A stretch of DNA of 37,019 bases from Candidatus Daviesbacteria bacterium (GTDB lineage Bacteria > Patescibacteriota > Microgenomatia > Daviesbacterales > UBA10151). The notes beneath the pieces were generated by a model. That model was given only the letters and a program-made list of their open reading frames with translations, ran no database searches and had not been told where the DNA came from. Both the position numbers and the translations under genes were made by a program. The stretch lies in assembly GCA_027451625.1 (NCBI GenBank), contig DAIDIY010000033.1:1-37019 (forward strand), given 5' to 3'. Of the stretch, positions 4,733 through 37,019 are shown in pieces. How positions within the stretch are numbered: the first letter of the stretch is position 1; every line of letters starts with the position of its first letter.

Positions 4733-7027
4733 ATGAAGGGATTCATGCAAGTTTTGATTGTAGTCCTTTCTTTAATAGGCATCACTGCTGCTGTTTATCT
4801 AGTTCAACAAAAAACCCACTTTCTTTCTCAAGCTTATTCTGGAGATCAAATGCTCCAAATGTTTTCTAATGTAACTAACCCTTCCTTGGCAAATTCTCAA
4901 ACTAAAACATTCAACTTTTCATCTACCTCTCCTAATAATGTAATAAACGCTACTTCCCAATCTATTCCTTCTTCATCTCAAAATCCAGGATCGTCAATAG
5001 TTCTTGGCAATAACAATAGTCCATCGACTTCAGAATCATATAACCAAAACATGATAAACGGGAGCCGTTTTACTACAAACTCAGGCCAAAGTTATGCACA
5101 GTCAATAAGTGTCTATCTTGCCAATTATGATGGTGCCTCTCCACAGATACAGATGGCAATATACACAGATATAAATGGTTCTCCTGGAAGGCTTATTTGG
5201 AACTCTTCAGATATAATAGGAAACCATAAAGGGTGGATTAGTGTATCTCTCCCCTCAATTCCGTTATATCCAAATACCGCTTATTGGTTGATGTTTAATA
5301 CTCATGGCAAAGCTGCAATAGCAGAAGTTAATCCTGGACAAGGAATCTCGTGGAATTCAAACTCTGTAAAATACGGCGATTGGCCTCCAGTTCTAAGTTC
5401 AGGTACTTTGAGCCATAAAGAATATTTTATTTATCTTAGTCTATCCCCAAGTCCTAACCTTATTACACCGACAACAAATCCCTCAGCCACTCTTATTCCT
5501 ACATATTCTGCGACTCCGATAACATCTCCTACCTCTATACCAACTCCTGCACCTACAACACCAATATATCCAACAATTTCTAATTTAATATTAGGCTTTA
5601 AAGGAACTCCAGCAGTAACTGATACCGGAGACTTAAACTCACTGGATGGAGGTGAATTTACAACGGGGAGTCAAGGAGGACCAGCTACTTCAATGAGTAT
5701 ATACATAAACCAAGTTGACAGTACGAATCCCGGAGTCCAATTAGGTATCTACACAGATTATTACGGTAAACCTCAAAATTTACTTTGGCACTCAAGCACT
5801 TTTAATGCTATCCAGGGATGGAATACAGTTCCTATTAGTCAATCTGTAAATCTTTCCGCTAATACTTCTTACTGGCTGCTATTTAATGTAAATGGTGCTG
5901 GAACTGAAGGTGGATGGGATGCAAATTCAGGTAATGGCTGGTACTCAGGTAATAGTAATGTTTCATTTGGGACATGGAGTAATTCAATTAGTTATAGTGG
6001 AAATACAGACTCTCAACTCTATGCAATTTATGTAACATACTCATCTACAAACACATCACCATCCCCAACTATTTCTTCTAATTCTAGCCAATCAAGTTTT
6101 GTAAGCAATTGTAATGGGCAATTTTGTATTAATGGAGTGAATAAAAAATTTGTTGGGGTAAATTTTTATGGATTGTTGGGAAATTGCGGACCTAGTGCTA
6201 ATAGTAATTACGATTCTGTGATGCAGACATTAAGCCAGGCCGGAGTTACATTGGTTCGTTTTTGGCTATTCCAACCCATGGGGAGATCTGTTTCAGATCT
6301 TCAGAACGCGCTTGATGCTGCTCAAAATCACGGAATATATCTTTTGCCTGTTTTTGCTAACCAATGGGCCGATTGTGATGGATCTCAAAAAGATGACAGC
6401 TGGTATGGTGGAGGATATACTGCAAATTATAAGCCGTATGTTTTAAATATAGTTCAACAGTTCAAAAACAATCCAGCTGTTTTTGGCTGGATGCTAATGA
6501 ATGAGGCAGAGGACGGAACTAATCCCAACAATCTATATAACTTCACTCAAGATATGGCTGATTCTATAAGACAGGTTGATCAAAACCATCTTGTAACTCT
6601 TGGTACCATAGGAAGAGGACAGGGAGGAACTTTAGTCTCAACAGGAGATTATGCAAATTTGTACAACATACCAAATATCGGTTTCGTAGAAGCACATGAT
6701 TATGATAGTTTTGATATTGCTTACCCTGATGTACCTTCAGGGGATGGAATTGCTTCCGATGTTCAAGTAGCTCACGACATAGGAAAGCCAATGTTGATCG
6801 GTGAAGAAGGGATGTCATCAACCAATGCTAAGTGTAATAATGGTAATCAAGCTTGGTCTAACAGACCTGCTTACACTCAAAATAAAATTAGCCAAGCATT
6901 CCAACACGGTGTATCAGCCTACATTCTTTGGATGTTCGACTTAAATGGAGGTGGAGATGGATGTGAATTTTCTCCCGGTGATCCTTTAATGAATGTTTTA
7001 AAGACATGCTCTATTGGTTCCTGTTAA
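4733..7027 (+). CDS. Secreted multimodular glycoside hydrolase: two N-terminal beta-sandwich-like repeats, Thr/Pro linker, GH5-like catalytic domain
   Basis: N-terminal signal/anchor helix; two similar modules (about residues 90-240 and 285-440); TPTTNPSATLIPT... linker; C-terminal domain with VRFWLF, GWMLMNEAEDG (acid/base-type NE) and PMLIGEEGMSS (nucleophile-type E). Confidence 0.75.
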   Translation: MKGFMQVLIVVLSLIGITAAVYLVQQKTHFLSQAYSGDQMLQMFSNVTNPSLANSQTKTFNFSSTSPNNVINATSQSIPSSSQNPGSSIVLGNNNSPSTSESYNQNMINGSRFTTNSGQSYAQSISVYLANYDGASPQIQMAIYTDINGSPGRLIWNSSDIIGNHKGWISVSLPSIPLYPNTAYWLMFNTHGKAAIAEVNPGQGISWNSNSVKYGDWPPVLSSGTLSHKEYFIYLSLSPSPNLITPTTNPSATLIPTYSATPITSPTSIPTPAPTTPIYPTISNLILGFKGTPAVTDTGDLNSLDGGEFTTGSQGGPATSMSIYINQVDSTNPGVQLGIYTDYYGKPQNLLWHSSTFNAIQGWNTVPISQSVNLSANTSYWLLFNVNGAGTEGGWDANSGNGWYSGNSNVSFGTWSNSISYSGNTDSQLYAIYVTYSSTNTSPSPTISSNSSQSSFVSNCNGQFCINGVNKKFVGVNFYGLLGNCGPSANSNYDSVMQTLSQAGVTLVRFWLFQPMGRSVSDLQNALDAAQNHGIYLLPVFANQWADCDGSQKDDSWYGGGYTANYKPYVLNIVQQFKNNPAVFGWMLMNEAEDGTNPNNLYNFTQDMADSIRQVDQNHLVTLGTIGRGQGGTLVSTGDYANLYNIPNIGFVEAHDYDSFDIAYPDVPSGDGIASDVQVAHDIGKPMLIGEEGMSSTNAKCNNGNQAWSNRPAYTQNKISQAFQHGVSAYILWMFDLNGGGDGCEFSPGDPLMNVLKTCSIGSC

Positions 7028-17748: not shown

Positions 17749-19074
17749 TTATTTAAGAGTTGAAAGCCTAACATCAACGCGTTCCATATCCCTGGGGAAA
17801 AGAGAAGCCTCACGGATATTAGCAAGACCTAAGATATGCATCACTATTCTCTCTGATCCAAATGAAAATCCCCCTTCAGGCGGTAGCCCAAATCGAAATG
17901 CTTGTATATATAGTTCACTTTTTTTAATATCGACATTCCTCTCCTTGGCTCTTTCTAATAATAGATCCATATTATTAATCCGTTGTCCGCCTGTTAACCA
18001 TTCTGTCCCTCTCCCGATTAAATCAAAACTTAATGTATACCCGGGGTCTTTTGGATCTTCTGAAGTATAAAATGGTCTCTTACTAACAGGATAATGAGTT
18101 ATAAAAACCAGATCAGAATTCTTTTCTTCTTGAGCCCATCTTGTAATCTCTCTTTCATCTTCCGGATCAAGATCAGACTCCCTGCGATGATCTATCCCAG
18201 TTCTTTGAAAAATTATCTCTTGGGCTTCTCTTAATTTAAGCCTCGGGATAGATTGAGGTACCTTTGGTATAGTTACTCCATAATAGTTTAATGCTTTTAC
18301 ACATTCTTTTTCTACTCTTTCTAAAATATATTTTATAACTTCCTCAACAGTCTCCATAATCTCCTCCCAAGAACTAATAAAACCCATCTCCGCATCTAAT
18401 GTTGTTACTTCAGTAAGATGTCTTGTTGTTACTGATGGTTCTGCCCGTAAAGTTTTATTAACAGTAAATACTCGTTCAAATACACCAACCATGATTTGTT
18501 TATAAAACTGAGGACTTTGAGCAAGATATGCAGTAGTGTCAAAATACTTTACTTCAAACACTTCAGCTCCACCCTCAGCAGTTTGAGGAATGATCACCGG
18601 AGATTGGAACTCTGTAAACCCTTTTTTCTTTAAAAGATCTCTAAATGCATCTATCACTACCTCCTGAACACGAAATATCTCTCTAACCTTAGGATGACGT
18701 AAAGTTAAAGAGCGGTAATCCAGGAGTGTCGGCAGTTGCAGATCAAGATCTTTTCCTCCCATATCAAAAGGTAGTTCTTCAGCTTTTGATAGAATCTCTA
18801 TTCTCTCTGCTTGAATTTCTACTGTGCCAGTTTCTAGATTGGGATTAATTAGCTTTTCTGGCCTTTTTGCTACTTTACCTTCGATACAAACTACATCTTG
18901 AGGATGGAGATTACCTGACAGACTACTTTCAGCTACAACTTGAGCCAGACCAGAACGATCATAGATATCTAAAAACACAATTTTACCGTGGTCCCGTCTA
19001 GTATTAACCCAGCCAAAAATTCTTACCTTCTCATCAGTTTTTTTTATTATATCTGCAATTAAAGTTCTCTCCAT
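17749..19074 (-). CDS. aspS: Aspartyl/asparaginyl-tRNA synthetase (compact archaeal-type class II)
   Basis: OB-fold VRIFGWVNTRRDHGKIVFLDIYDRSG; class II core motifs FRAEPSVTTRHLTEVTTLDAEMGF and GLPPEGGFSFGSERIVMHILGLANIREASLFPRD. The track start 19095 is a TTG; ATG 19074 is more likely. Confidence 0.92.
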   Translation of the reverse strand: MERTLIADIIKKTDEKVRIFGWVNTRRDHGKIVFLDIYDRSGLAQVVAESSLSGNLHPQDVVCIEGKVAKRPEKLINPNLETGTVEIQAERIEILSKAEELPFDMGGKDLDLQLPTLLDYRSLTLRHPKVREIFRVQEVVIDAFRDLLKKKGFTEFQSPVIIPQTAEGGAEVFEVKYFDTTAYLAQSPQFYKQIMVGVFERVFTVNKTLRAEPSVTTRHLTEVTTLDAEMGFISSWEEIMETVEEVIKYILERVEKECVKALNYYGVTIPKVPQSIPRLKLREAQEIIFQRTGIDHRRESDLDPEDEREITRWAQEEKNSDLVFITHYPVSKRPFYTSEDPKDPGYTLSFDLIGRGTEWLTGGQRINNMDLLLERAKERNVDIKKSELYIQAFRFGLPPEGGFSFGSERIVMHILGLANIREASLFPRDMERVDVRLSTLK

Positions 19075-19107
19075 AGGTTGTTTTGATAATAACAATTTGA
19101 GGCCAAC

Positions 19108-19136
19108 TTGACAATATCAGCTTTTGGCCATAAAAT
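19108..19136 (+). promoter_or_regulatory. Consensus promoter TTGACA-17-TAAAAT driving the leader and cassette
   Basis: -35 TTGACA 19108-19113, 17-nt spacer, -10 TAAAAT 19131-19136. Confidence 0.7.
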
Positions 19137-19156
19137 ATCAATCATAAATTGAATCT

Positions 19157-19243
19157 ATGAATATTGAAGTTGAAATTTTATTTACTTATCTCCTTTGGGT
19201 GCTTATTATGGCACCGATCCAAGGGAGGTCTCTTTTTAGGTAA
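19157..19243 (+). CDS. Putative 28-codon leader peptide MNIEVEILFTYLLWVLIMAPIQGRSLFR
   Basis: Complete ATG-to-TAA ORF overlapping the attenuator structure; TAT-CTC-CTT-TGG codons coincide with the 5' strand of stem P1. Confidence 0.45.
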   Translation: MNIEVEILFTYLLWVLIMAPIQGRSLFR

Positions 19244-19295
19244 AAGATAACCTAAAAGAAAGAATCAAGACACCTCCCGAAAGGGGGGTTTTTTT
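19188..19295 (+). promoter_or_regulatory. Putative transcription attenuator with competing anti-antiterminator, antiterminator and terminator stems
   Basis: P1: 19188-19198/19219-19229 (11 bp, 2 GU). P2: 19234-19241/19250-19257 (8 bp). Terminator: 19272-19278/19283-19289 with GAAA tetraloop and T-run to 19295. GGGAGGT (19223-19229) is fully complementary to ACCTCCC (19272-19278). Confidence 0.7.
19272..19295 (+). terminator. Intrinsic terminator ACCTCCC-GAAA-GGGGGGT plus T-run
   Basis: 7-bp stem (one GU) capped by GAAA, then an uninterrupted T-run 19289-19295, ending 7 nt before ATG 19303. Confidence 0.7.
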
Positions 19296-19302
19296 ATGGA
19301 TT

Positions 19303-20652
19303 ATGACAGAATTTATTAAGACAACTGATTCATTTTATCAAGATTTAGTATCCCATACAGAGGATATGGAACATGCTGTGTCACGGTCTAAATATAGAGA
19401 TGATATAGAGTGCATGCAGAAGGCTTTACAGCATAATTACCCTGAAGGTAAATATAGAGTTATTACCGGGGAGCAACCATATGGAGCGTTAGGCACTCCT
19501 AAGGTTCTTGGAAAAAGAATTTTAGCTACAGCTTTAACCAAACATCATCCTGATGTTGTATCAATTGAACTATTTGCCAATCTAGATTTAGTCGGATCGG
19601 AAAAAGGATTTTATCAATTATCCATACCAAATATAGGGTCTCCAGATGGGGTGTTAGGATATAATTTACTCTCAGAACGTATTCGGTCAGACGATTCAAT
19701 TGCAGCTGGTATTCAACTCCCTAATGACTATATCACAAGACAAATAGCAAAAGCATTACAATCATTTAGAGGATATTATCCCGGTCAAATGCCTCATGGA
19801 AGAGGTCCTCGTTATGATATAGATGTAATGTCTAATTGGGCAAGATTATACGGTGTTCCAGAAAAAACTAGTGTTAATCAACTAGGAAATTATGCTGAGG
19901 CACATATTCAATGGCTAACTAATTTAGAGCATACTCTAGGAATAAAACTAGATTATTTGGCTCGCGAAAGCGAAGTAGATCTTTTACTTGCTAAAAATGG
20001 AGGTATAAATATATTAGACAAAACATGGAAGAGAGGAATAAGAAGATTAAGAGAAATTGGATATACTCCTGTAGGAATTAAAATAACGGAAGACCAAGAT
20101 GAAATTACTCCTTTTAATTTATCTTATAATGGCATCAGATTAAGAAGTAGATTCGTAAATAATGACGGCTCAAGAATTTTACTCAGTAATCCGAAAGATC
20201 CTAGCTCATCACATGAGATTACCATTGATGATGCAATAAGCGGGAAATACGGTTTTTCATTTAGAGCCGTTCCAAGAGTACTTCTATATTCTCTGGCCGC
20301 ACTATCAGGTCATATAACTGGAGGCGGGTCTATTTATAATCAGGATGCAAGATATTTCATGGAATTGGAAGGAATGCCTTATTTTCCCATTACTAACATG
20401 CATGCTGAAGAAAACGGAGAGAAACTATCTTGCATACAATATATATCATTAGCCCTATCCCGTTCTAATCACCCTGGAGCAGAAGAAGCTCTTAGAAAAG
20501 GTCATCTTTCTCTTTTGGATTTTGTGTTATCTTGCAATTTAACAGAAGCTAGAGAATGTATAGCAAATACCATAGACAAAAATCAACCATTTAAGACTTC
20601 TCAATATATAGTAGTTCCTAATAAAGAAGGCGCAATACCAAATATTAGTTAA
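19303..20652 (+). CDS. Uncharacterised protein, first gene of the attenuated cassette
   Basis: 449 aa ORF, no recognised family. Distinctive blocks: PHGRGPRYDIDVMSNWARLYG, SGHITGGGSIYNQDARYFMELEGMPYFPITNMHAEENGEK. Confidence 0.85.
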   Translation: MTEFIKTTDSFYQDLVSHTEDMEHAVSRSKYRDDIECMQKALQHNYPEGKYRVITGEQPYGALGTPKVLGKRILATALTKHHPDVVSIELFANLDLVGSEKGFYQLSIPNIGSPDGVLGYNLLSERIRSDDSIAAGIQLPNDYITRQIAKALQSFRGYYPGQMPHGRGPRYDIDVMSNWARLYGVPEKTSVNQLGNYAEAHIQWLTNLEHTLGIKLDYLARESEVDLLLAKNGGINILDKTWKRGIRRLREIGYTPVGIKITEDQDEITPFNLSYNGIRLRSRFVNNDGSRILLSNPKDPSSSHEITIDDAISGKYGFSFRAVPRVLLYSLAALSGHITGGGSIYNQDARYFMELEGMPYFPITNMHAEENGEKLSCIQYISLALSRSNHPGAEEALRKGHLSLLDFVLSCNLTEARECIANTIDKNQPFKTSQYIVVPNKEGAIPNIS

Positions 20653-20659
20653 AAGATTT

Positions 20660-21775
20660 ATGAAAAATTTAGAGGCTGTAATCACTCCAAATCAAGATAG
20701 AACTTTAGTCCTAGGCGCGGCTACAATTGAATCTACGTTTAAATTAATTCCTGGAACTCATCACGAACCTGATACTACATTAACAATTGTTCCGGTAGAA
20801 AAAAGCTATGGAGGATCTGGATTATGCAATGCTCTAGCATACAATCGGACAGGAATAGCTATGACAGATTTAGTTACGACAGGAGCAACAGTAAATGGCG
20901 TTCCCACTCCTGAATCTTTGGATATCAAAGAATTCTTGAAAAAAAACGCGATAACACCATCTATTCAATGGCATAATGGAGTAACCGAGCAAACTCTTAT
21001 AATACTTAGTGGATGTGATGACGATCCCAAACGTGGTTTTAGAACCGCACAATCAGAAGGAACATTATTAAGAGAATTTTTTTTCGTTGATGATCAACTT
21101 AGAAAAAAAATAGTAGATTATCCTTTATTAATAGCAAGTTCGTTCGGACCCAAAATCATCTTGAAGTTGGCAGAACTTTATAAATCTCAAAATAATGATA
21201 GTAAAACTCTATTTGCTTGGGCCTTAAACAAAGAATCTGCAGATAATATTGGAAAAGATAAATCCATTCAAGAATCAATACTTAACGGTAATATAGATAT
21301 AATGTTTATGTCCAGCAATGAACAGGCATCAATTCTTAGTCATTTAGGAGCAATCGGACCAATCGACAAAATAAGGACTATTGTAGTAACTAAAGGAAGC
21401 GCTGGCTGCTCCATCAGAGATCGTCTGAACGGACATACTATAGAGTTGGATATACCTATATTTGATGTACCTAAATATATAAAAAATGATAATGGTGCAG
21501 GTGAAGCTCATCACATGAATTTTCTAGCGACATTATATACATCTCAAGATCTTTTGTCGGATTATCCTAATAAAACTTTTAGAGCAAGAGTTATAGAGAT
21601 TGCTGGAAATATAGGTAATTTAGCTTCATACTTAAAGATACAGCATCCTGAATCTTTATGGTTTCCATCTTTAGACTTCACTTTATTAGATGAAGAAATA
21701 AAAAATGATAAGCTTTCTCCTAAAGAGATAGCAAAAAAAGTATATGAAAGATATTTAGATAGTACATATGACTAA
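20660..21775 (+). CDS. PfkB/ribokinase-like carbohydrate kinase with divergent catalytic motif
   Basis: GGSGLCNALAYNRTGI (PfkB signature-1-like), VVTKGSAGCSI, NDNGAGEAHHMNFLA at the position of the usual DTTGAGD motif. Confidence 0.7.
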   Translation: MKNLEAVITPNQDRTLVLGAATIESTFKLIPGTHHEPDTTLTIVPVEKSYGGSGLCNALAYNRTGIAMTDLVTTGATVNGVPTPESLDIKEFLKKNAITPSIQWHNGVTEQTLIILSGCDDDPKRGFRTAQSEGTLLREFFFVDDQLRKKIVDYPLLIASSFGPKIILKLAELYKSQNNDSKTLFAWALNKESADNIGKDKSIQESILNGNIDIMFMSSNEQASILSHLGAIGPIDKIRTIVVTKGSAGCSIRDRLNGHTIELDIPIFDVPKYIKNDNGAGEAHHMNFLATLYTSQDLLSDYPNKTFRARVIEIAGNIGNLASYLKIQHPESLWFPSLDFTLLDEEIKNDKLSPKEIAKKVYERYLDSTYD

Positions 21776-22475
21776 ACAGAAGAACATACTTGCAATTACT
21801 GCTCATCCAGATGACCACGTAACCTTTGCTGGAACAATTTTTAAATTGAAGGAACAAGGTTACGATTACCATGAATTAATATTAACAGCAGGGGGAGAGG
21901 GCGGTAATTACAAAAATTATAATTCTAAGAATAACAATTCTAAAGTCACTAAAATTAGAGATCGAGAGCTTGAAAAGGCGTCTATAATAATGGGAACAAA
22001 AAAAATATATAAATTTAATCTAGAAGATCAAAATATTTCTTACAATAAAGAACTTATGCAAAAGATAGTCAAGGTTATTCGAGAGATCAGGCCTGATATT
22101 GGCATAACTATGAACTTAATAGATATACATCCTGACCATATTGCAGCTGCTCAACTAGCCAGAGAAGCCTTCCGTTGGTCAGCTAAAGGAACCTATCATC
22201 CAGAATATGGAGAAGGGCACAGAACACCATGTGTATTATTTGCTGAAGGAAATCTTCCTATTACTCCAAACATATTAGTAGATATTACTGAATTTTATGA
22301 CAAAAAATATAAACTATTTAAAGTCTATAATTCCCAGGCTTCTCCTATGGATTTAGAATTATTAAAGAGCTTTGCAATCATCCGAGGATACCACTTGCGG
22401 CGTAAAGGGAGTAAATATGCAGAATCATTTTCTGTAGAACAAAATATCCTTCCCATTCTTTTTGATTATGACTGA
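21768..22475 (+). CDS. PIG-L/LmbE-family deacetylase
   Basis: ILAITAHPDDHVTFAGTI (AHPDD zinc motif), DIHPDHIAAAQLAREAF; start overlaps the previous gene by 8 nt. Confidence 0.9.
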   Translation: MTKQKNILAITAHPDDHVTFAGTIFKLKEQGYDYHELILTAGGEGGNYKNYNSKNNNSKVTKIRDRELEKASIIMGTKKIYKFNLEDQNISYNKELMQKIVKVIREIRPDIGITMNLIDIHPDHIAAAQLAREAFRWSAKGTYHPEYGEGHRTPCVLFAEGNLPITPNILVDITEFYDKKYKLFKVYNSQASPMDLELLKSFAIIRGYHLRRKGSKYAESFSVEQNILPILFDYD

Positions 22476-23139
22476 AAGAACTCCTTCGATTAGAAAAAAT
22501 ATTTACGCTTTTGATTTTGATTCTACTCTTGGAAAAGTCGGTCCAGAAATCGACAACCAAATGTTCGTTTTCATTTCTAGATGTACAGGAATTCCTATTG
22601 ATAAGGTTGAATATTTAGCACCTCGGCCTTATTCTATCAGAACTCACCTTGAGAATCTTTCGAATCATTTTTCTTTATCTGATATTAATCAGACTTTTAA
22701 AGAAATATCTAATTTCTTAAAATATATATTCAGAGATATCCTATATCCAGACACTATAGAAGTACTTAATAAACTAAGAGATCAAGGTAGTATAATTGGC
22801 GTAGTTACCTATGGAGGAAAAGATTACCAAAGGCTTAAGATCGTAGCTAGTGGATTAGAGCCAATTATAGACTTTTTAAAAATAACCTCAATACAGTTAT
22901 CAAAAGGCAACTATTTAGAACAAATACAAAGAAAATACCCCTTTTTACCACTGCACTACATTGATGATAGAGTTGAAGAATTAACATCAATACGTGACCA
23001 TGTAAGTACAAGATACAGAACACCTTCCCTTATCCATATGCGCAGAAGTTCCTCACAAGACACTACGAATACTAAATTACCTTTTCCTGTAATTTCTACT
23101 CTCTATCAACTTTTAGATTCTAATCCAAATGAGACTTAG
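22462..23139 (+). CDS. HAD-superfamily hydrolase
   Basis: IYAFDFDSTLG (motif I DxDST), GVVTYGGKDY (motif II), LHYIDDRVEEL (motif IV); start overlaps the deacetylase gene by 14 nt. Confidence 0.8.
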   Translation: MIMTERTPSIRKNIYAFDFDSTLGKVGPEIDNQMFVFISRCTGIPIDKVEYLAPRPYSIRTHLENLSNHFSLSDINQTFKEISNFLKYIFRDILYPDTIEVLNKLRDQGSIIGVVTYGGKDYQRLKIVASGLEPIIDFLKITSIQLSKGNYLEQIQRKYPFLPLHYIDDRVEELTSIRDHVSTRYRTPSLIHMRRSSSQDTTNTKLPFPVISTLYQLLDSNPNET

Positions 23140-23240: not shown

Positions 23241-24854
23241 CTACTCTAGATTTATAACTTTAAGTTGTAGTTTATCTTCACCTGTAAAATTATCTATCTC
23301 TAAATAATACATCAGATCTACTATCTGTCTCTCATCAAGAATTTTTGCTTTATCTCCTTTAGAGAAAGCTATCGCTTGGACTCCTGCAATCTTTGCTCGA
23401 AGGTGCTTTCCATTGCCTACTGTTTTAACATTTGAAATTTCTTCTTTTATGGATCCAAAGAGAGGTTTTGGGTTTCCCATCCCGAATGGTTCAAATATTG
23501 ATATAGCTTCGATCCAGCTCAAATCTATAGAGTCTAAAGACAGAATCGCCTCAACTTCTTGGCTACTGTTACTTTCATAAGAAACAGTATCAAAAGCTTT
23601 GGTCAGACTACTTTTAAGGTCAGTAATCTTTTCACTCTTTAGGGTAAAACCAGCTGCTTTTGGATGTCCTCCTAAATCTATAAGTAAGTCTGAGAATACC
23701 CTTATAGTCTCTACAATATTAATACCATCAACTGATCTAGCGGAACCTTTAGACTCAATCTCTCCCTCAGAGATAATAATCGCTGGCAAATGGTACTCCT
23801 CTGCCAATCTTCCTGCCACCAGTCCGATAACTCCAGGAATCCAATCTTTAGAAGAAAGAAAAATTACTTTTTGTCCTTTTAAATTTAAGCCGTCGATTAT
23901 ACTTTTAGCATCCCAAATAGCTTTCTCTGTAATCTTTTTTTTCTGATCATTAGTATCACAAAGTTTAGTTGCCAGATTATATGCTTTTTCTGGATTAGAA
24001 GTACAAAGAAGCCGTAATGCGTCCATTGCATGCTCTAATCTCCCAATAGCATTAAGTCGAGGCCCTAAGATATACCCTATATGATAAGTATTAATACTTC
24101 CTAAATTAAGATTTGTTTTTGCAAAAAGTGCTAGAAAACCTACTCTCTCAGTCCTATTTAAAATTTCTAAACCTTTTTTTACTAAAGCTCGATTTATATC
24201 AACCAAAGGAACAAGATCACACACTGTAGCAACAGCAACTAAATCCAATAAGCTCTCTACAAAATCTTTATCGTCAGATAGTCTTCGTGCCAAAGCCCAG
24301 GCAACACCTGCTCCGGCCATCTTCGTTGAATGAACTACAGCATGTGCTTTTGGTAAACTAGATCCCGGCAAATGGTGATCTGAGATAATTAGATCTATTC
24401 CTATCTTTTTTGCATAGAGTGCTGCCTCTTCTGCAACGATTCCATTATCTACGGTAATAATCAGCTTTGCTCCCTGGTCTCGAGCTTGATCTATTCCATA
24501 TATTGAAAGCCCATATCCTTCTTTTTCCCGATGAGGGATATAAGGCAAGATCTTAGCTCCTAAGGAAGAGAGAGTATGATATATTATTGCTGTTGCGCAA
24601 ACCCCATCGACATCGTAATCACCAAAGACAATAATTTGTTCCTGGTCTTTTATTGCTTGTAGAATCCTCTTTTTGGCTTTTTCTATTCCGGGTATTAGTA
24701 GCTCTTCTTCAAAGTCTGATATATTACAATCAAAAAACTTTTTTTGTTGCTCTTTAGTTTTCAGGCCTCTATTTTTTAATAGTTGATTTATTAAATCATC
24801 CTTAGAGGTAACAACATCCTTAATCTGTACCGGCAGCTTCCACTCCATAACCAT
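23241..24854 (-). CDS. recJ: Single-stranded-DNA-specific exonuclease RecJ
   Basis: 537 aa: FGDYDVDGVCATAI, ISDHHLPGS (DHH), C-terminal DHHA1-type LGGHPKAAGFTL. Confidence 0.93.
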   Translation of the reverse strand: MVMEWKLPVQIKDVVTSKDDLINQLLKNRGLKTKEQQKKFFDCNISDFEEELLIPGIEKAKKRILQAIKDQEQIIVFGDYDVDGVCATAIIYHTLSSLGAKILPYIPHREKEGYGLSIYGIDQARDQGAKLIITVDNGIVAEEAALYAKKIGIDLIISDHHLPGSSLPKAHAVVHSTKMAGAGVAWALARRLSDDKDFVESLLDLVAVATVCDLVPLVDINRALVKKGLEILNRTERVGFLALFAKTNLNLGSINTYHIGYILGPRLNAIGRLEHAMDALRLLCTSNPEKAYNLATKLCDTNDQKKKITEKAIWDAKSIIDGLNLKGQKVIFLSSKDWIPGVIGLVAGRLAEEYHLPAIIISEGEIESKGSARSVDGINIVETIRVFSDLLIDLGGHPKAAGFTLKSEKITDLKSSLTKAFDTVSYESNSSQEVEAILSLDSIDLSWIEAISIFEPFGMGNPKPLFGSIKEEISNVKTVGNGKHLRAKIAGVQAIAFSKGDKAKILDERQIVDLMYYLEIDNFTGEDKLQLKVINLE

Positions 24855-24896: not shown

Positions 24897-26267
24897 TTGC
24901 CTACTCTCAAAAAAATAATTATGAACTTAAAAGTATCAAAAGAGATTAACGATGTTTTGGATAAATTTACCAAAGCAGGATATAAAATTTACATAATCGG
25001 TGGATCAGTACGCGATCTTTTAATAAACCGCCAAACCCTTGATTGGGATTTTACAACCAGTGCCAAACCAGATGAGATTTTAGATCTTTTTCCCCAAGGA
25101 TACTATGACAATAAATTCGGAACTGTAGGTATCCCCCTTACTAAAAATATAAATGAATCACTAAAAATAGAAATTACCACTATGCGCAAAGAGGGAGATT
25201 ATAAGAATTTCCGCCATCCACTAGAGGTATCTTGGACTGATGAAATTTTAGAGGATTTAAAAAGACGAGATTTTACCATAAACTCTATGGCTTTAGACCA
25301 AAACCTTACTCTTTATGATCCATTTCATGGACAATCAGATTTAGAAGAAAGGATAATTCGTGCTGTAGGTAGTCCGCAAAAACGTTTTTCAGAAGATGCA
25401 CTAAGGATGATGAGAGCTATAAGAATTGCATCACAGATCGGATTTAAAATTGAAGAGAAGACTTTTCAGGCAATTGTTGATAATTGTGATCTTATTACCC
25501 AAATCTCTCCAGAGAGAATAAGAGATGAACTTTTTAAAATTCTCTCCTCAGAAAATCCGACCTTAGGTATAGAACTGCTGAAAAAATCAAAAATCTTAAA
25601 ACTTATTTTGCCTGAAGTTGAAAAATGTTTTGGTATAGTCCAGGAAGGATCAAAGCATGACCGAATTTATGATATTGGAGAGCATCTACTCTCTTCTTTA
25701 AAACACTCTCCTTCTGCAGATCCATTGGTTAACCTTGCTATTTTGCTCCATGATATTGGTAAAGTACCCACTGTTAAAATTGAACCTTCAGGGAATGTAA
25801 CATTCTATAATCATGATCTTGTTGGAGGAGAGATGATTTTAAAAATATCACAGCGATTAAAGCTCTCCAATGAACAAACAGATAAACTTTATAAACTTGT
25901 CCGCTGGCATCTTTTTACTGTTAATGAAAATCAAACAGACGCAGCGATCCGTCGATTTGTTAAAAATATAGGTAGAGAAAATATCGACGACATGATAGCT
26001 CTTCGCATAGCTGATCGTTTAGGAGGAGGTACACAAAAGGCTGTATCATGGCGGATGGAAAAATTTCAGCAGAGAATAAAAGAAGTTCTGAAAAAACCAT
26101 TTTCAATTACAGATCTTAAAGTAAACGGTTATGATATCATGAAAGTATTAAATATTCCCCCGTCTCGGAAAGTAGGTGAGATCTTAGATGCTTTATTCAA
26201 AGAGGTTTTAGAGGATAGTAATAAGAATAACCGGGAATATCTGTTACAAAGGATTGAAAAACTGTAA
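24897..26267 (+). CDS. cca: CCA tRNA nucleotidyltransferase / poly(A) polymerase family with HD domain
   Basis: IYIIGGSVRDLLINRQTLDWDFTT, RRDFTINSMAL, LAILLHDIGKVPT (HD). Start is either TTG 24897 or ATG 24921. Confidence 0.93.
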   Translation: MPTLKKIIMNLKVSKEINDVLDKFTKAGYKIYIIGGSVRDLLINRQTLDWDFTTSAKPDEILDLFPQGYYDNKFGTVGIPLTKNINESLKIEITTMRKEGDYKNFRHPLEVSWTDEILEDLKRRDFTINSMALDQNLTLYDPFHGQSDLEERIIRAVGSPQKRFSEDALRMMRAIRIASQIGFKIEEKTFQAIVDNCDLITQISPERIRDELFKILSSENPTLGIELLKKSKILKLILPEVEKCFGIVQEGSKHDRIYDIGEHLLSSLKHSPSADPLVNLAILLHDIGKVPTVKIEPSGNVTFYNHDLVGGEMILKISQRLKLSNEQTDKLYKLVRWHLFTVNENQTDAAIRRFVKNIGRENIDDMIALRIADRLGGGTQKAVSWRMEKFQQRIKEVLKKPFSITDLKVNGYDIMKVLNIPPSRKVGEILDALFKEVLEDSNKNNREYLLQRIEKL

Positions 26268-32182: not shown

Positions 32183-35100
32183 TTATTGACTCTGCTGAAC
32201 GCTTCCATTTGCTATCAATATATTAAGCAGTGATTCATAATCTAGTGAATTTATTACCCCATCATGGTTAAAGTCTAGTGTGTAAGGAATATTTGAGAGA
32301 TTACACGATGTTAAACACCAATCAGAAAAGAGCACTGACATATCCTGCAGGTCTACTTTCCCATCTCCATTTCCATCTCCCATAAGTCCCCCTCCGATAC
32401 CTGGTGTTATTGAAAGTGTCGGTATCAAAGATTGAGTTGGGATTGCCATTGTCCCCATTAATGCAAAATCTGAGAAATTACTCGTTTGACATGAAACATC
32501 TTGAGTTGCTTGATTTACCTGGCAATCATTTAGTTTTTGCCAGTTACTTCCATCATATCGATATATTCCAAGGCTTGTTAGATCTATTCCCGCTACAGTA
32601 TTTGGGTCATAATGCATGGATACTATTATTGGATTTACAAAAGAATCCAGTGTTGTATATGGGTCTATTAATGAATGAATATGGTAGAGATAGCTACCAA
32701 CTACTTCTTTACCTGCAGGTATTGTAACGTTACTCTCATACTGAGTTTTATTTAATTGCTCTACCTGGAATGTTGTTGAGATAATATTCGATCCTTCTCC
32801 TACATAATCTTTTGGTACTGACACCATTACTCCGAAATTATTTTGTCCCAGATTATTGATCTCTCCACCCTGATTTACCAGTATTGCGGACTCTGTTGCT
32901 GAGGTCACTTGAGCACCTCCATTGCACATTGTCGTAAAGTTTTGGTCTGATAATGTCGCAGTACTTCCCGTAGAGTCTTTGGAAACAATATTCATATTAT
33001 ATGTCGTACACGGCACCAGATTACTTATCTGTTCGCTATGGTTTACCTCTCCTTCTGAATCTATTATCCCCGCATCCTCTCCATATTGACTATTTAGTCC
33101 ATACAACACATCTCCGGTTGATTGATTATTGGTACTCCACGAGATTGTTGCTGAATCGGTTGCTGTATTTATCTGAGGGAGTGTCTTTATCAAAAGCCCG
33201 CTACCTGGTATTACTGTAAGGTCTGGTGAATCACTTGTTTGTTTTTGGATTATCTGTCCATCATTTTCAACTGTTACAGTCACATTGTATGTTGGATTAG
33301 TCAACGTGAATCCAAATACTGATGTTGGATGATACTCTGCTACCCATGAACCTAATACTGCTCCTGTATCTCCCATTATCAAATTTTGAGGTTGAGAGTT
33401 TACTTCTCCTGAACTTAAAAGTCCAAAGACAGTATTTATTTGGTTTATCTCAAACTGGATATTATCTCCATAACAATCACCACTTGTTATTACTTTAATT
33501 CCTACATTTACCCCCTCTTCTACATTATCTATTATCTGATTACCATTACTATCCACCCATTTTACACTATTTATTTCACAAGGAACTGGAGTAGGGGTAG
33601 GAGTCTCTGTTGGCGTGGGAGTATTTGAAGGTGTTGGAGTAAGAGTAGGAGTTATAGTTATTGTCGGTGTTGGAGTGAGTGTTGGTATCGGCTCATTTAC
33701 CAATAGTTCTGGATTTTGTGATGTTATCTTACCGCTTCCATCTGCGAATGTTGCTACAAAGAAGTAATTTGCTATTCCACCTAAATTCTGAGGCTGATAC
33801 TCACTTGTCCATGTTCCTTCTCCTATTCCTCCTACTATTGTTCCCACTATTGGCGTTGTATTTATCTGAGTAAATCCTCCTGGATTAAGTAAACTTGAGT
33901 CATCTCTCCACACAGAGAACATCAGCTGCTGCCCGTTGCATGAATTTACCTGATTTGTTATTACTTTCATCCCTACATCAACCCCTGGATTTACTCCGCT
34001 TAAGATGTTATTTCCACTACTGTCTACCCAAGATCCTAATGTCAAAACACAGGGTACTGATGTAGGGACCGGAGTTAGTGTTTCTGTGGGAACTGACGTT
34101 AAGGTAGGAACTAAAGTCGGTGATGGTGTAGGAGTTATAGTTATCGTTGGTGTTGAAGTGAGTGTTGGCCCTCCACCTATTCCTCCACTTGGTGTCGGAG
34201 TAGCTGTCGGAATAATTGTTGGTTCTTGGGTTGGAGTTAAAGTAACTGTTGGTGTGGATGTTGGAGTAAGAGTAGGAACTATATTTGGATAGATTGTAAA
34301 TGTATATCCTGCCGTTGATCCTAAAATATCTGCATTATCTGAGTTTCTATATATTACTGAATTTAAATTATCAAATCCTACCGTTGTATCCCCTGTCTGT
34401 GATGGTACAAAATTTACTGTTGCCAAAAGTTGAGGGGTTGCAGTTTTGATTCCAGGGCTTACTACACCCCCTGTAAGTGATATCTTTCCTTGTGAATTAT
34501 CATAGTATTTCTCTACCCACGTACCTACAAAGGATCCCGTTGTGTCTATGTTTCCAACTTGAAGTGTTAATGGGTCAAACGTGAGTTTTGCTGAAAACAT
34601 ATTTGCTGAGTCTACTCCCGATGCTGCATATATTTTAATCGGGATTATACTACCCACATTTACTGTATTAAGTACCGATGTAGCTGAAAAACTAGCTGTT
34701 CCTCCTGGTACTACTCCTAATGCTCCTATTAATGTAGGAGTAGGAGTCTCTGTTGGCGTTGAAACTGTTTGAGTAGGAGTAATTGTAGGAAGTCCAGCTA
34801 GATTGTTCGTTAATGTATAACACGGGCTAGATGAACAGGTATTACTGGCAGCATCACCTCCAAAGAAAACTACACCTGTCGGGTTAATATACCAATTGTC
34901 ATGAATATTTCCTGTTGACAGATTAGTTGTTGGCCAGGAAATGATTTCGATTTGTCCTGGATTAGTAAAATTTTTCTCCCAGCCGTTATTTACAAATATT
35001 GAATTTTTAACTTCCGTATTTAAATTATTTCCACCGTTATCTAAGAATTCAATTGCCCCTCCAGGGTTATTTTCAAACCAGGAGTTTTCGATAATGGTAT

Positions 35101-37019
35101 TACTGGCACCTGATTCAAAGTCAATCCCCGTGTTGTCAGTTGCCCAAGATAAAGGGGTGTCTTTAATAGTTGCATTATCAAATATAACATTTGAGCTCCC
35201 GCCGAAAAATACTGATGAGGTACCTTTTGGGGCACCCCCTGTTCCTCGATCAATAATAAAATTAGATATTGTACACGTATGACAATCAGCAGCACTTAAA
35301 CTGGCATAGGAAACATCTGGTAACTCATTATCATGTAAATAAAAATTATCAAACAACACATTATCATATCCTCCAGTTCCATAAAGTCCATTTCCGCTAC
35401 CGCTCCAATCAAGCATGAAACCAGTTCCGGAGTTGTAGGCTTCTGAATTAGTGATTCTAAGATCAGTCATTATAGGGGCATAGGTTGGACTTGATGAACC
35501 AAGTCCAGTAACTCCTATTGCATACGACATATTTACTCCATCAGGTGAGACATAGTTTTGCCAATTAGGATTGTTGCTGCTTGATCCATTACCATCATAA
35601 AGACCGTTGAACCCATGTCCTAAAATATCATTAAAATATACAGAATGATTATTAAAAACGTTATTATAGAATAGAATTATTCCTGCTCCGGCATTGCACA
35701 CTTCAAGACTATTAACATTCATATATGAAGCATCATTTATAACCACCGCTCTTTGAGATATATCCCCGTCCCTGCAGATCTTTGGTCTTGGCCCTGAACC
35801 GTACGCACCAATAGTTATAAAGTTGGTAGATGTTCCAGACCCATTTATGGTCAGTTGTTGATCCCAAACTCCTCCTCGTTTTAACAATACTTGATCTCCT
35901 GGTTGAAGCGTTATTTGAGCTAAGTTTGTAAAATCTGCCCAGGGAGTACTCACACTTGTTCCATTATTAGAATCTGACCCCGAAGGATCAATATAGTAAG
36001 TAAGCGGAGGGGTCAGATTAGAAGAAATAGATAACATCTCTCCTGTACTGGTAACTGAAACTACCGGATCAGAAACAAGATAAGCTTGGATATAATAATT
36101 AGGATTCCCAAATACATCCAAAAACCCTGAAGATATATACTCAGCTTTCCAGGTAGTAGATGCTCCGTTAGTAAGTAAATCTACTGGATCTATATTATCC
36201 GCAACAACAATAGAAGGAAGCAGGCCACCTGATTTATATACTTGAAATTTAACTTGCTGTCCCACACAATCTCCTGTACTTACCACATTTAAAGGTACTA
36301 ACGTTTGATCAGCGATAGGATTTGTTGTTGATATCCCAAATGAAACTCCTGTTAGTTGGCATGCTCCTAAAACTTGAACTGTAGTTGGAGTCGGAGTAAC
36401 TGATGTTGCCCCATATACTTCAAGTGTTGCTAGTTGATAATCATTTGCATTTACTCCTGAATGCATGTATATACGCAAAAATTGCGCATTCCACCCGCCT
36501 ATATTATTATCAAAATTACCATTAATTCCTCCCCATACTCCCGAAAAATCCTTACCGTTACCTGAAACTTGCAAATCATAATTAGTTGCGCTATCTGTAC
36601 CCCAGACAACTTTTACTTCCCCTATTTTAAGATAGCTTCCCAAGTTAACTGTATATATAACACCATCTCCTCCAGATGCTGAAGTCCAATAAGTACCATC
36701 ATTATTATCAACTGCATTTAAAACCGCAGAACCTGTAGCTGTTGGTGAAATCTGATATGTAAATGGATGAGCATAAGCTAAGTCTCCAACTTTTCCGCTA
36801 GTTGAAGAACTTGCAGGAGTTGGAAGTAATGTCGGAGTAGCCGTAGGTTGAACGACGGTAGTTGGTGTTAAGGTAGGGATTAAAGTCGGTGATGGTGTAG
36901 GAGTTATAGTTATTGTCGGTGTTGAAGTGAGTGTTGGCCCTCCACCTATTCCCCCACTTGGGGTTGGAGTAGGAGTTTCTGTTGGTGTAGAGGTTGCCCC
37001 TGATATGGAGGTTGGAGTA
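32183..37019 (-). CDS. Giant modular secreted/surface protein, 5' end beyond window: Thr/Pro linker, discoidin-like (F5/8C), beta-helix, cohesin-like, Ig/FN3-like modules and terminal dockerin
   Basis: The frame is open to the window edge; the track start 36643 is a TTG inside the discoidin-like domain. Upstream reads ...GKVGDLAYAHPFTYQISPTATGSAVLNAVDNNDGTYWTSASGGDGVIYTVNLGSYLKIGEV. C-terminus has GDGNGDGKVDLQDMSVLFSDW and LDFNHDGVINSLDYESLL. Confidence 0.88.
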   Translation of the reverse strand, partial: TPTSISGATSTPTETPTPTPSGGIGGGPTLTSTPTITITPTPSPTLIPTLTPTTVVQPTATPTLLPTPASSSTSGKVGDLAYAHPFTYQISPTATGSAVLNAVDNNDGTYWTSASGGDGVIYTVNLGSYLKIGEVKVVWGTDSATNYDLQVSGNGKDFSGVWGGINGNFDNNIGGWNAQFLRIYMHSGVNANDYQLATLEVYGATSVTPTPTTVQVLGACQLTGVSFGISTTNPIADQTLVPLNVVSTGDCVGQQVKFQVYKSGGLLPSIVVADNIDPVDLLTNGASTTWKAEYISSGFLDVFGNPNYYIQAYLVSDPVVSVTSTGEMLSISSNLTPPLTYYIDPSGSDSNNGTSVSTPWADFTNLAQITLQPGDQVLLKRGGVWDQQLTINGSGTSTNFITIGAYGSGPRPKICRDGDISQRAVVINDASYMNVNSLEVCNAGAGIILFYNNVFNNHSVYFNDILGHGFNGLYDGNGSSSNNPNWQNYVSPDGVNMSYAIGVTGLGSSSPTYAPIMTDLRITNSEAYNSGTGFMLDWSGSGNGLYGTGGYDNVLFDNFYLHDNELPDVSYASLSAADCHTCTISNFIIDRGTGGAPKGTSSVFFGGSSNVIFDNATIKDTPLSWATDNTGIDFESGASNTIIENSWFENNPGGAIEFLDNGGNNLNTEVKNSIFVNNGWEKNFTNPGQIEIISWPTTNLSTGNIHDNWYINPTGVVFFGGDAASNTCSSSPCYTLTNNLAGLPTITPTQTVSTPTETPTPTLIGALGVVPGGTASFSATSVLNTVNVGSIIPIKIYAASGVDSANMFSAKLTFDPLTLQVGNIDTTGSFVGTWVEKYYDNSQGKISLTGGVVSPGIKTATPQLLATVNFVPSQTGDTTVGFDNLNSVIYRNSDNADILGSTAGYTFTIYPNIVPTLTPTSTPTVTLTPTQEPTIIPTATPTPSGGIGGGPTLTSTPTITITPTPSPTLVPTLTSVPTETLTPVPTSVPCVLTLGSWVDSSGNNILSGVNPGVDVGMKVITNQVNSCNGQQLMFSVWRDDSSLLNPGGFTQINTTPIVGTIVGGIGEGTWTSEYQPQNLGGIANYFFVATFADGSGKITSQNPELLVNEPIPTLTPTPTITITPTLTPTPSNTPTPTETPTPTPVPCEINSVKWVDSNGNQIIDNVEEGVNVGIKVITSGDCYGDNIQFEINQINTVFGLLSSGEVNSQPQNLIMGDTGAVLGSWVAEYHPTSVFGFTLTNPTYNVTVTVENDGQIIQKQTSDSPDLTVIPGSGLLIKTLPQINTATDSATISWSTNNQSTGDVLYGLNSQYGEDAGIIDSEGEVNHSEQISNLVPCTTYNMNIVSKDSTGSTATLSDQNFTTMCNGGAQVTSATESAILVNQGGEINNLGQNNFGVMVSVPKDYVGEGSNIISTTFQVEQLNKTQYESNVTIPAGKEVVGSYLYHIHSLIDPYTTLDSFVNPIIVSMHYDPNTVAGIDLTSLGIYRYDGSNWQKLNDCQVNQATQDVSCQTSNFSDFALMGTMAIPTQSLIPTLSITPGIGGGLMGDGNGDGKVDLQDMSVLFSDWCLTSCNLSNIPYTLDFNHDGVINSLDYESLLNILIANGSVQQSQ
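34098..34203. repeat. Near-identical 106-bp direct repeat, copy A (Thr/Pro linker)
   Basis: 7 mismatches by eye against 36867-36972. Confidence 0.85.
36867..36972. repeat. Near-identical 106-bp direct repeat, copy B (Thr/Pro linker)
   Basis: 7 mismatches by eye against 34098-34203. Confidence 0.85.

Follow-up and report, generated by a model that had tools for sequence, protein, structure and literature searches.

A predicted leader-peptide attenuator ahead of an orphan gene cassette in Candidatus Daviesbacteria, and related leaders in Microgenomates

The locus and its leader

The window, by which we mean the whole stretch of 37,019 nucleotides analyzed here (Candidatus Daviesbacteria bacterium, contig DAIDIY010000033.1), contains a four-gene cassette, ORF1 to ORF4, preceded by a leader and bordered by aspS on one side and a recJ-like gene on the other. 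The features, with the basis of each assignment, are as follows.

17749-19095, minus strand: aspS of the non-discriminating type, divergent border of the slot (NF003483, 468 bits; synteny)
19108-19136, plus strand: promoter TTGACA-17-TAAAAT (direct reading; 11 of 12 consensus matches)
19157-19243, plus strand: uORF, ATG to TAA, 28 codons, MNIEVEILFTYLLWVLIMAPIQGRSLFR (translation; homologous uORFs at the equal place in the family)
19188-19198, plus strand: segment 1 (strand A), 5' strand of P1, with the putative control codons CTC CTT (Leu Leu, 19190-19195) (pairing, codon reading)
19219-19229, plus strand: segment 2 (strand B), 3' strand of P1, of which GGGAGGT (19223-19229) doubles as the 5' strand of the antiterminator (folding, family pairing)
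19234-19257, plus strand: P2 hairpin (19234-19241 with 19250-19257), nested in the antiterminator and containing the start of the uORF stop codon (folding, two-sided changes)
19272-19278, plus strand: segment 3 (strand C), ACCTCCC, whose partner is segment 2 (antiterminator) or segment 4 (terminator) (folding, family pairing)
19283-19295, plus strand: segment 4 (strand D), GGGGGGT and T-run, predicted intrinsic terminator (terminator scan, family pairing, folding)
19303-20652, plus strand: ORF1, 449 aa, without a Pfam, NCBIfam or PHROG match, modeled fold resembling BshC and class I aaRS (family search, fold comparison)
20660-21775, plus strand: ORF2, PfkB-like sugar kinase (E 0.01 in the window, E 1.6e-8 in a homologous cassette)
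21768-22475, plus strand: ORF3, PIG-L deacetylase, best NCBIfam model BshB1 (99.4 bits, under the 182.5-bit cut-off)
22462-23139, plus strand: ORF4, HAD-type hydrolase; the listed start is TTG, and the true start is maybe slightly downstream (family search)
23241-24854, minus strand: recJ-like gene, convergent border of the slot (sequence reading; synteny with relatives)
24897-26267, plus strand: cca-like gene, next after the recJ-like gene (sequence reading; synteny with relatives)

Elsewhere in the window, two large secreted-looking proteins were noticed by eye, one glycoside hydrolase-like (4733-7027) and one Pro/Thr-rich with a dockerin-like end (32183-36643).

The promoter, with its -35 box TTGACA (19108-19113), 17-nt spacer and -10 box TAAAAT (19131-19136), ranked first among 38 promoter-like sites in a scan of 6.9 kb. 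P1 has 11 pairs, two of them G-U (19188-19198 with 19219-19229), and encloses an inner stem (19199-19203 with 19210-19214). The terminator is laid out as 19272-19278, a GAAA loop and 19283-19289, and the ATG of ORF1 (19303) lies downstream of the T-run. The initial annotation had placed the promoter, P1, P2, the terminator and this ATG correctly, including the terminator stem and loop, although the T-run that it gave as T6 has seven residues (19289-19295). Direct reading also bears out the perfect complementarity that it described between GGGAGGT (19223-19229) and ACCTCCC (19272-19278).

The 110-nt core of the RNA (19186-19295) folds at -42.6 kcal/mol, compared with -26.4 ± 3.5 in dinucleotide shuffles (z -4.6; 0 of 200). 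Folded alone, P1 reaches -21.4 kcal/mol (z -4.0), the antiterminator, that is, segments 2 and 3 with P2 nested, -21.6 kcal/mol (z -4.2), and the terminator -12.5 kcal/mol (z -2.2). From the folding in the window and the pairing in the family, the 1:2, 2:3 and 3:4 helices are mutually exclusive, in the layout of a classical attenuator. These energies and the mutual exclusion support the proposed logic, in which P1, when formed, allows the terminator and, when open, releases GGGAGGT to take ACCTCCC. A chance origin of the leader hairpins was considered and is excluded by the same-family homologs and the shuffle test.

The uORF (19157-19243), a putative sensor overlooked by the initial annotation, begins some 20 nt downstream of the -10 box, spans both P1 strands and ends inside P2, its stop 12 nt behind segment 2. 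No Shine-Dalgarno sequence precedes it in the window. Chance alone can give an ORF of such size in any single leader; the retrieved family leaders have a uORF at the equal place, with its stop typically 14-22 nt past the start of segment 2. Codons 12 and 13 are CTC CTT (Leu Leu), within the 5' strand of P1. The 28 residues include 5 Leu, 4 Ile and 2 Val, as well as Trp, Tyr and Phe; the peptide has no long single-residue run, and a strict composition rule assigns it to the class 'other'.

The window leader is very probably a ribosome-mediated transcription attenuator with a leader peptide and four competing segments. Its helices and uORF are apparent from the sequence and from comparison; on this basis, RNA polymerase would start just past 19136 and, as synthesis of the leader proceeds, a ribosome would translate the 28-codon uORF. 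When charged tRNA for the control codons is scarce, we infer that the ribosome would stall on segment 1 (19188-19198), and segment 2 (GGGAGGT) would then be free to pair with segment 3 (ACCTCCC) around P2. This pairing would block the terminator, and thus the cassette would be transcribed. Without translation, segments 1 and 2 would pair and termination would be expected too.

In 61 of 85 family leaders, GGGAGG of the terminator 3' strand is followed directly by the T-run and then by an ATG or GTG. The terminator 3' strand may double as a Shine-Dalgarno sequence, both in the window (19283-19303) and in the family leaders.

Related leaders and their peptides

With the window leader only as the query, blastn against 95 related genomes gave same-family matches with E values down to 2e-15 and, for the strong ones, about 71-81% identity; ORF1 is absent from the same-family genomes that carry these leaders. 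The retrieved leaders have the promoter, uORF, segments 1-4 and P2 in common. R1, a covariance model restricted to the core of segments 2-4, was built from 24 leaders, the window among them; strand A was left out after a misaligned MAFFT alignment, and its pairing was tested separately. R1 matched in 42 of the 45 family genomes, with 1 to 6 copies per genome, and at E <= 1e-3 in 81 of 281 class genomes. The names of the family records are Ca. Daviesbacteria and Microgenomates, and named contigs, scanned independently by pattern, likewise gave mostly Candidatus Daviesbacteria and Microgenomates records. Matches of R1 outside the class, from a search of the phylum, are in part ordinary 3' terminators (L175, L177) and are not counted as evidence of a wider spread.

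Pairing was evaluated in 115 distinct leaders. On an alignment fitted to the terminator and P2, 99.5% of the terminator pairs are kept. Two-sided changes occur in 6 of the 7 terminator pairs (0 of 500 shuffles) and in all 9 P2 pairs. The antiterminator, which is not contained in R1, is 89.9% paired, compared with 39-64% when slid. Its covariation is modest (20 cells with a two-sided change, 1 of 500 shuffles; by pairs with a two-sided change, 147 of 500), because segment 3 is also constrained by the terminator. Segments 1 and 2 pair at 6 or more of 7 positions in 44% of the leaders, compared with 6.6% when the upstream DNA is shuffled. Across the relatives, neither the loop nor the inner stem of P1 is conserved. 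Conserved or covarying pairing, on which the initial annotation had staked its claim, is thus present in the related leaders, and the claim survives.

Genes behind the leaders were named by NCBIfam, and the uORF of each leader was read. Phe/Tyr/Trp-rich peptides precede DAHP synthase, AroB, PheA, TyrA, PheS, TyrRS and TrpE, and Ile-rich peptides precede IleRS and citramalate synthase (CimA). Leu/Val/Ile-rich peptides are found ahead of acetolactate synthase, LeuA-like enzymes and IlvD, Thr-rich peptides ahead of ThrRS, Thr/Lys-rich peptides ahead of aspartokinase, and one Lys-rich peptide ahead of DapF. Furthermore, Cys-rich peptides precede CysK and CysRS, and Ser-rich peptides precede SerB-SerA. 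Across 47 leader-gene pairs, chosen for having an annotated amino-acid gene and with expected residues set from gene function, these residues are enriched by a mean log2 value of 1.26, compared with -0.54 ± 0.23 in permutations (0 of 20,000). When seven awkward pairs, AspRS and LysRS behind non-matching leaders, were added, the 54 pairs gave 0.92, compared with -0.45 ± 0.22 (0 of 50,000). Counting peptide types by 'best class' was set aside, since rare residues confound it.

There are exceptions. Aromatic leaders stand ahead of short ORFs and AspRS, and an Ile leader ahead of a short ORF and PheA. A CCPLMTT leader (peptide MSKLSVSCCPLMTTPDKGGFFV) ahead of a ValRS-like gene (L081:2083-4245) does not fit valine. 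In two genomes, attenuator-like leaders precede greA-like genes (L119:6064-6134, L130:7644-7717), with uORFs of no clear amino-acid bias; these may sense something other than an amino acid. With the exceptions included, the composition of the predicted peptides mostly matches the downstream gene across the class, and it is this match that argues for ribosome-mediated attenuation rather than a riboswitch.

Judged from its sequence, the window copy belongs to the Leu/branched-chain leader type, and its control codons are most likely CTC CTT and the neighboring Leu, Ile and Val codons. We infer that the signal sensed is probably leucine or the branched-chain amino acids.

The slot and the orphan cassette

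In nearly all genomes with a long enough contig, the Leu-type family leaders are divergent from aspS and convergent with recJ, which is followed by cca. What stands between the leader and recJ varies: short lineage-specific ORFs, genes resembling ALS or LeuA/CimA, a RelA/SpoT gene or large orphans. The window slot is filled by a large-orphan cassette. The RelA/SpoT-family gene (L102:3476-4918) is preceded by a Leu-type leader and then a short ORF. Lineage-specific ORFs of 60-180 aa, some sharing motifs such as NRSRW, lie directly behind the leader in the Leu-type slots of L095, L103, L112, L117, L118 and others. Divergent attenuator pairs, a Leu-type leader toward recJ and an aromatic one toward aspS, were seen in L075, L099, L105, L106, L107, L108 and L126. 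Large proteins without a Pfam match also occur directly behind attenuators (L115:4348-5994, L120:7842-9230, L111:4897-6480, L152:1088-3835), with no convincing relation to one another or to ORF1. Similarly, ORF1 has no convincing similarity to the orphan proteins behind Leu-type leaders in G021, G008, G010 and G130.

Whole-genome searches found ORF1 homologs in just two genomes, G631 and G646, which belong to another class; scans with ORF1 peptide patterns of genome and viral contigs, and of phage records, found nothing. PfkB, PIG-L and HAD genes are present in these two genomes too (G631 by family search, G646 by reading). In G631 and G646, an attenuator stands directly ahead of the ORF1 homolog, with the uORFs MNTSLCHNLYIAMLIFVWADSAWEVT and MKTINSTIFFLIITPN and model scores of 46.0 and 23.6 bits, respectively. 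The leader peptides of these homologous cassettes include LYIAMLIFVW and STIFFLIITPN, and Leu-Ile is present in all three cassette peptides. Since both other-class cassettes have an attenuator and all three peptides contain Leu-Ile, the cassette and a predicted branched-chain-rich attenuator recur together across classes, via shared descent, transfer or convergence. The cassette is not recognizable as a leucine pathway.

An AlphaFold2 model of ORF1 from three sequences has low confidence (pLDDT 56, pTM 0.59), and a single-sequence fold (pLDDT 34) was of no use. With the low-confidence model, Foldseek pointed to the BshC/class I aaRS fold (E 5.5e-5, probability 1.00), and VIA-align placed it nearest to Bacillus subtilis BshC (4wbd; Z 12.1, 278 aligned, rmsd 5.5) and class I LysRS (1irx_A; Z 11.0, 249 aligned, rmsd 4.3), the next fold having Z 7.1. 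At the level of sequence, the BshC profile TIGR03998 has no match in the window's genome, the BshC-family profile has none at E <= 1e-5 in the relatives and the phylum, and an ORF1 profile gave only chance-level matches to PDB sequences (E 0.2). ORF3 is in the PIG-L superfamily (95.4 vs 28.2 bits) and under the BshB1 cut-off (TIGR04001). The cassette has no glycosyltransferase like BshA. Because the modeled ORF1 fold resembles BshC and class I aaRS and ORF3 resembles BshB1, the cassette can reasonably be guessed to encode a bacillithiol-like or aminoacyl-sugar pathway.

Alternative readings and known attenuators

A leader-peptide attenuator might instead sense a general slowdown of translation, for example by a ribosome-targeting drug or by shortage of several hydrophobic amino acids together. 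All three cassette peptides, that of the window and those of G631 and G646, do draw on a mixture of Leu, Ile, Val, Phe, Tyr and Trp, and in one genome a Leu-type leader precedes RelA/SpoT. However, the other family peptides are sharply biased, mostly in agreement with amino-acid biosynthesis or aaRS genes, and the cassette has no resistance gene; thus we consider this reading unlikely. A new class of metabolite riboswitch, in which P1 forms the aptamer stem, would account for a stable P1 that excludes the antiterminator. The initial annotation had left the choice between riboswitch and leader-peptide attenuator open, and only the latter is supported: the P1 loop and inner stem vary among relatives without any conserved aptamer-like element, yet the peptide that the leader could encode varies with the downstream gene. 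As no Rfam family matches in the window at the gathering score, and no riboswitch family appears among the leader matches up to E 10, a riboswitch is very improbable. A constitutive promoter with a leaky, unregulated terminator and coincidental inverted repeats is extremely improbable, given the leader in 42 of 45 family genomes with its pairs kept and covarying, and the peptide-gene match. The probability of a tRNA-sensing T-box leader is negligible, although the short motif TGGCACC in P1 resembles the T-box bulge and an aaRS gene adjoins, since T-box (RF00230) has no covariance-model match even at E <= 10, the leader lacks a specifier loop and the length of stem I, and TGGCACC is simply one side of the P1 inner stem and is not retained in most relatives.

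The mechanism favored here, ribosome-mediated attenuation, is itself a textbook one, described for amino-acid operons (PMC1183508). The window leader resembles E. coli trpL, pheL, leuL and ilvL in the control-codon uORF over segment 1, the exclusive 1:2, 2:3 and 3:4 pairing, the stop placed for the ribosome to cover segment 2, and the intrinsic terminator. In contrast to the E. coli leaders, the window family is patescibacterial, its uORF is nearly leaderless and lacks a Shine-Dalgarno sequence, and a related RNA core carries many peptide specificities. Proteobacterial amino-acid leaders are separate Rfam families. The best sub-threshold Rfam match of the leader is RF01859 Phe_leader (31.1 bits, compared with a gathering score of 55; E 0.0019); the overall layout is alike, but the score is far under gathering and the window peptide is not Phe-rich. 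The earlier view that the leader belongs to no known class thus holds for Rfam, where nothing reaches the gathering score, but not for the mechanism, which is of a known kind.

A leucine-rich attenuator peptide is described for the Staphylococcus aureus ilv operon (PMC5794164) and a three-hairpin attenuator for Corynebacterium glutamicum ilvBNC (PMC11857589); by these descriptions, they are alike in that a branched-chain-rich peptide controls an attenuator, and differ in belonging to other phyla and to biosynthetic operons. Leader-peptide attenuators of aaRS genes are described for trpS and leuS in Streptomyces (PMC1262725) and for hisS in bacilli (PMC2965389), a likeness by description to the leaders of IleRS, ThrRS, TyrRS, PheS and CysRS here. 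In the open literature, we found no paper joining attenuation, leader peptide and CPR. As far as searched, the use across a class of Patescibacteria, the related RNA core for many amino acids and the link to an orphan cassette are new.

Most amino-acid biosynthesis is described as missing from Patescibacteria (PMC11665869). Little is known of their gene regulation. We tentatively propose that Microgenomates may sense amino acids in general through a single inherited attenuator core, whose leader peptides can be exchanged and are tuned to several amino-acid groups (Leu/branched-chain, Ile, aromatic, Thr, Thr/Lys, Lys, Cys and Ser). This core would drive biosynthesis genes, aaRSs, a RelA/SpoT gene and lineage-specific slot genes, and in the window it may place a pathway that is new and bacillithiol-like, with a BshC-like ligase, a BshB-like deacetylase, a kinase and a phosphatase, under leucine or branched-chain supply. 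Attenuator peptides that name the sensed amino acid would give a sequence-readable map of what uncultured bacteria monitor, and the set of attenuators would predict functions for unknown genes behind the leaders. The attenuator may also serve as a natural expression-control part for organisms without inducible systems. In the window, an anonymous cassette would thus become a testable pathway under amino-acid control.
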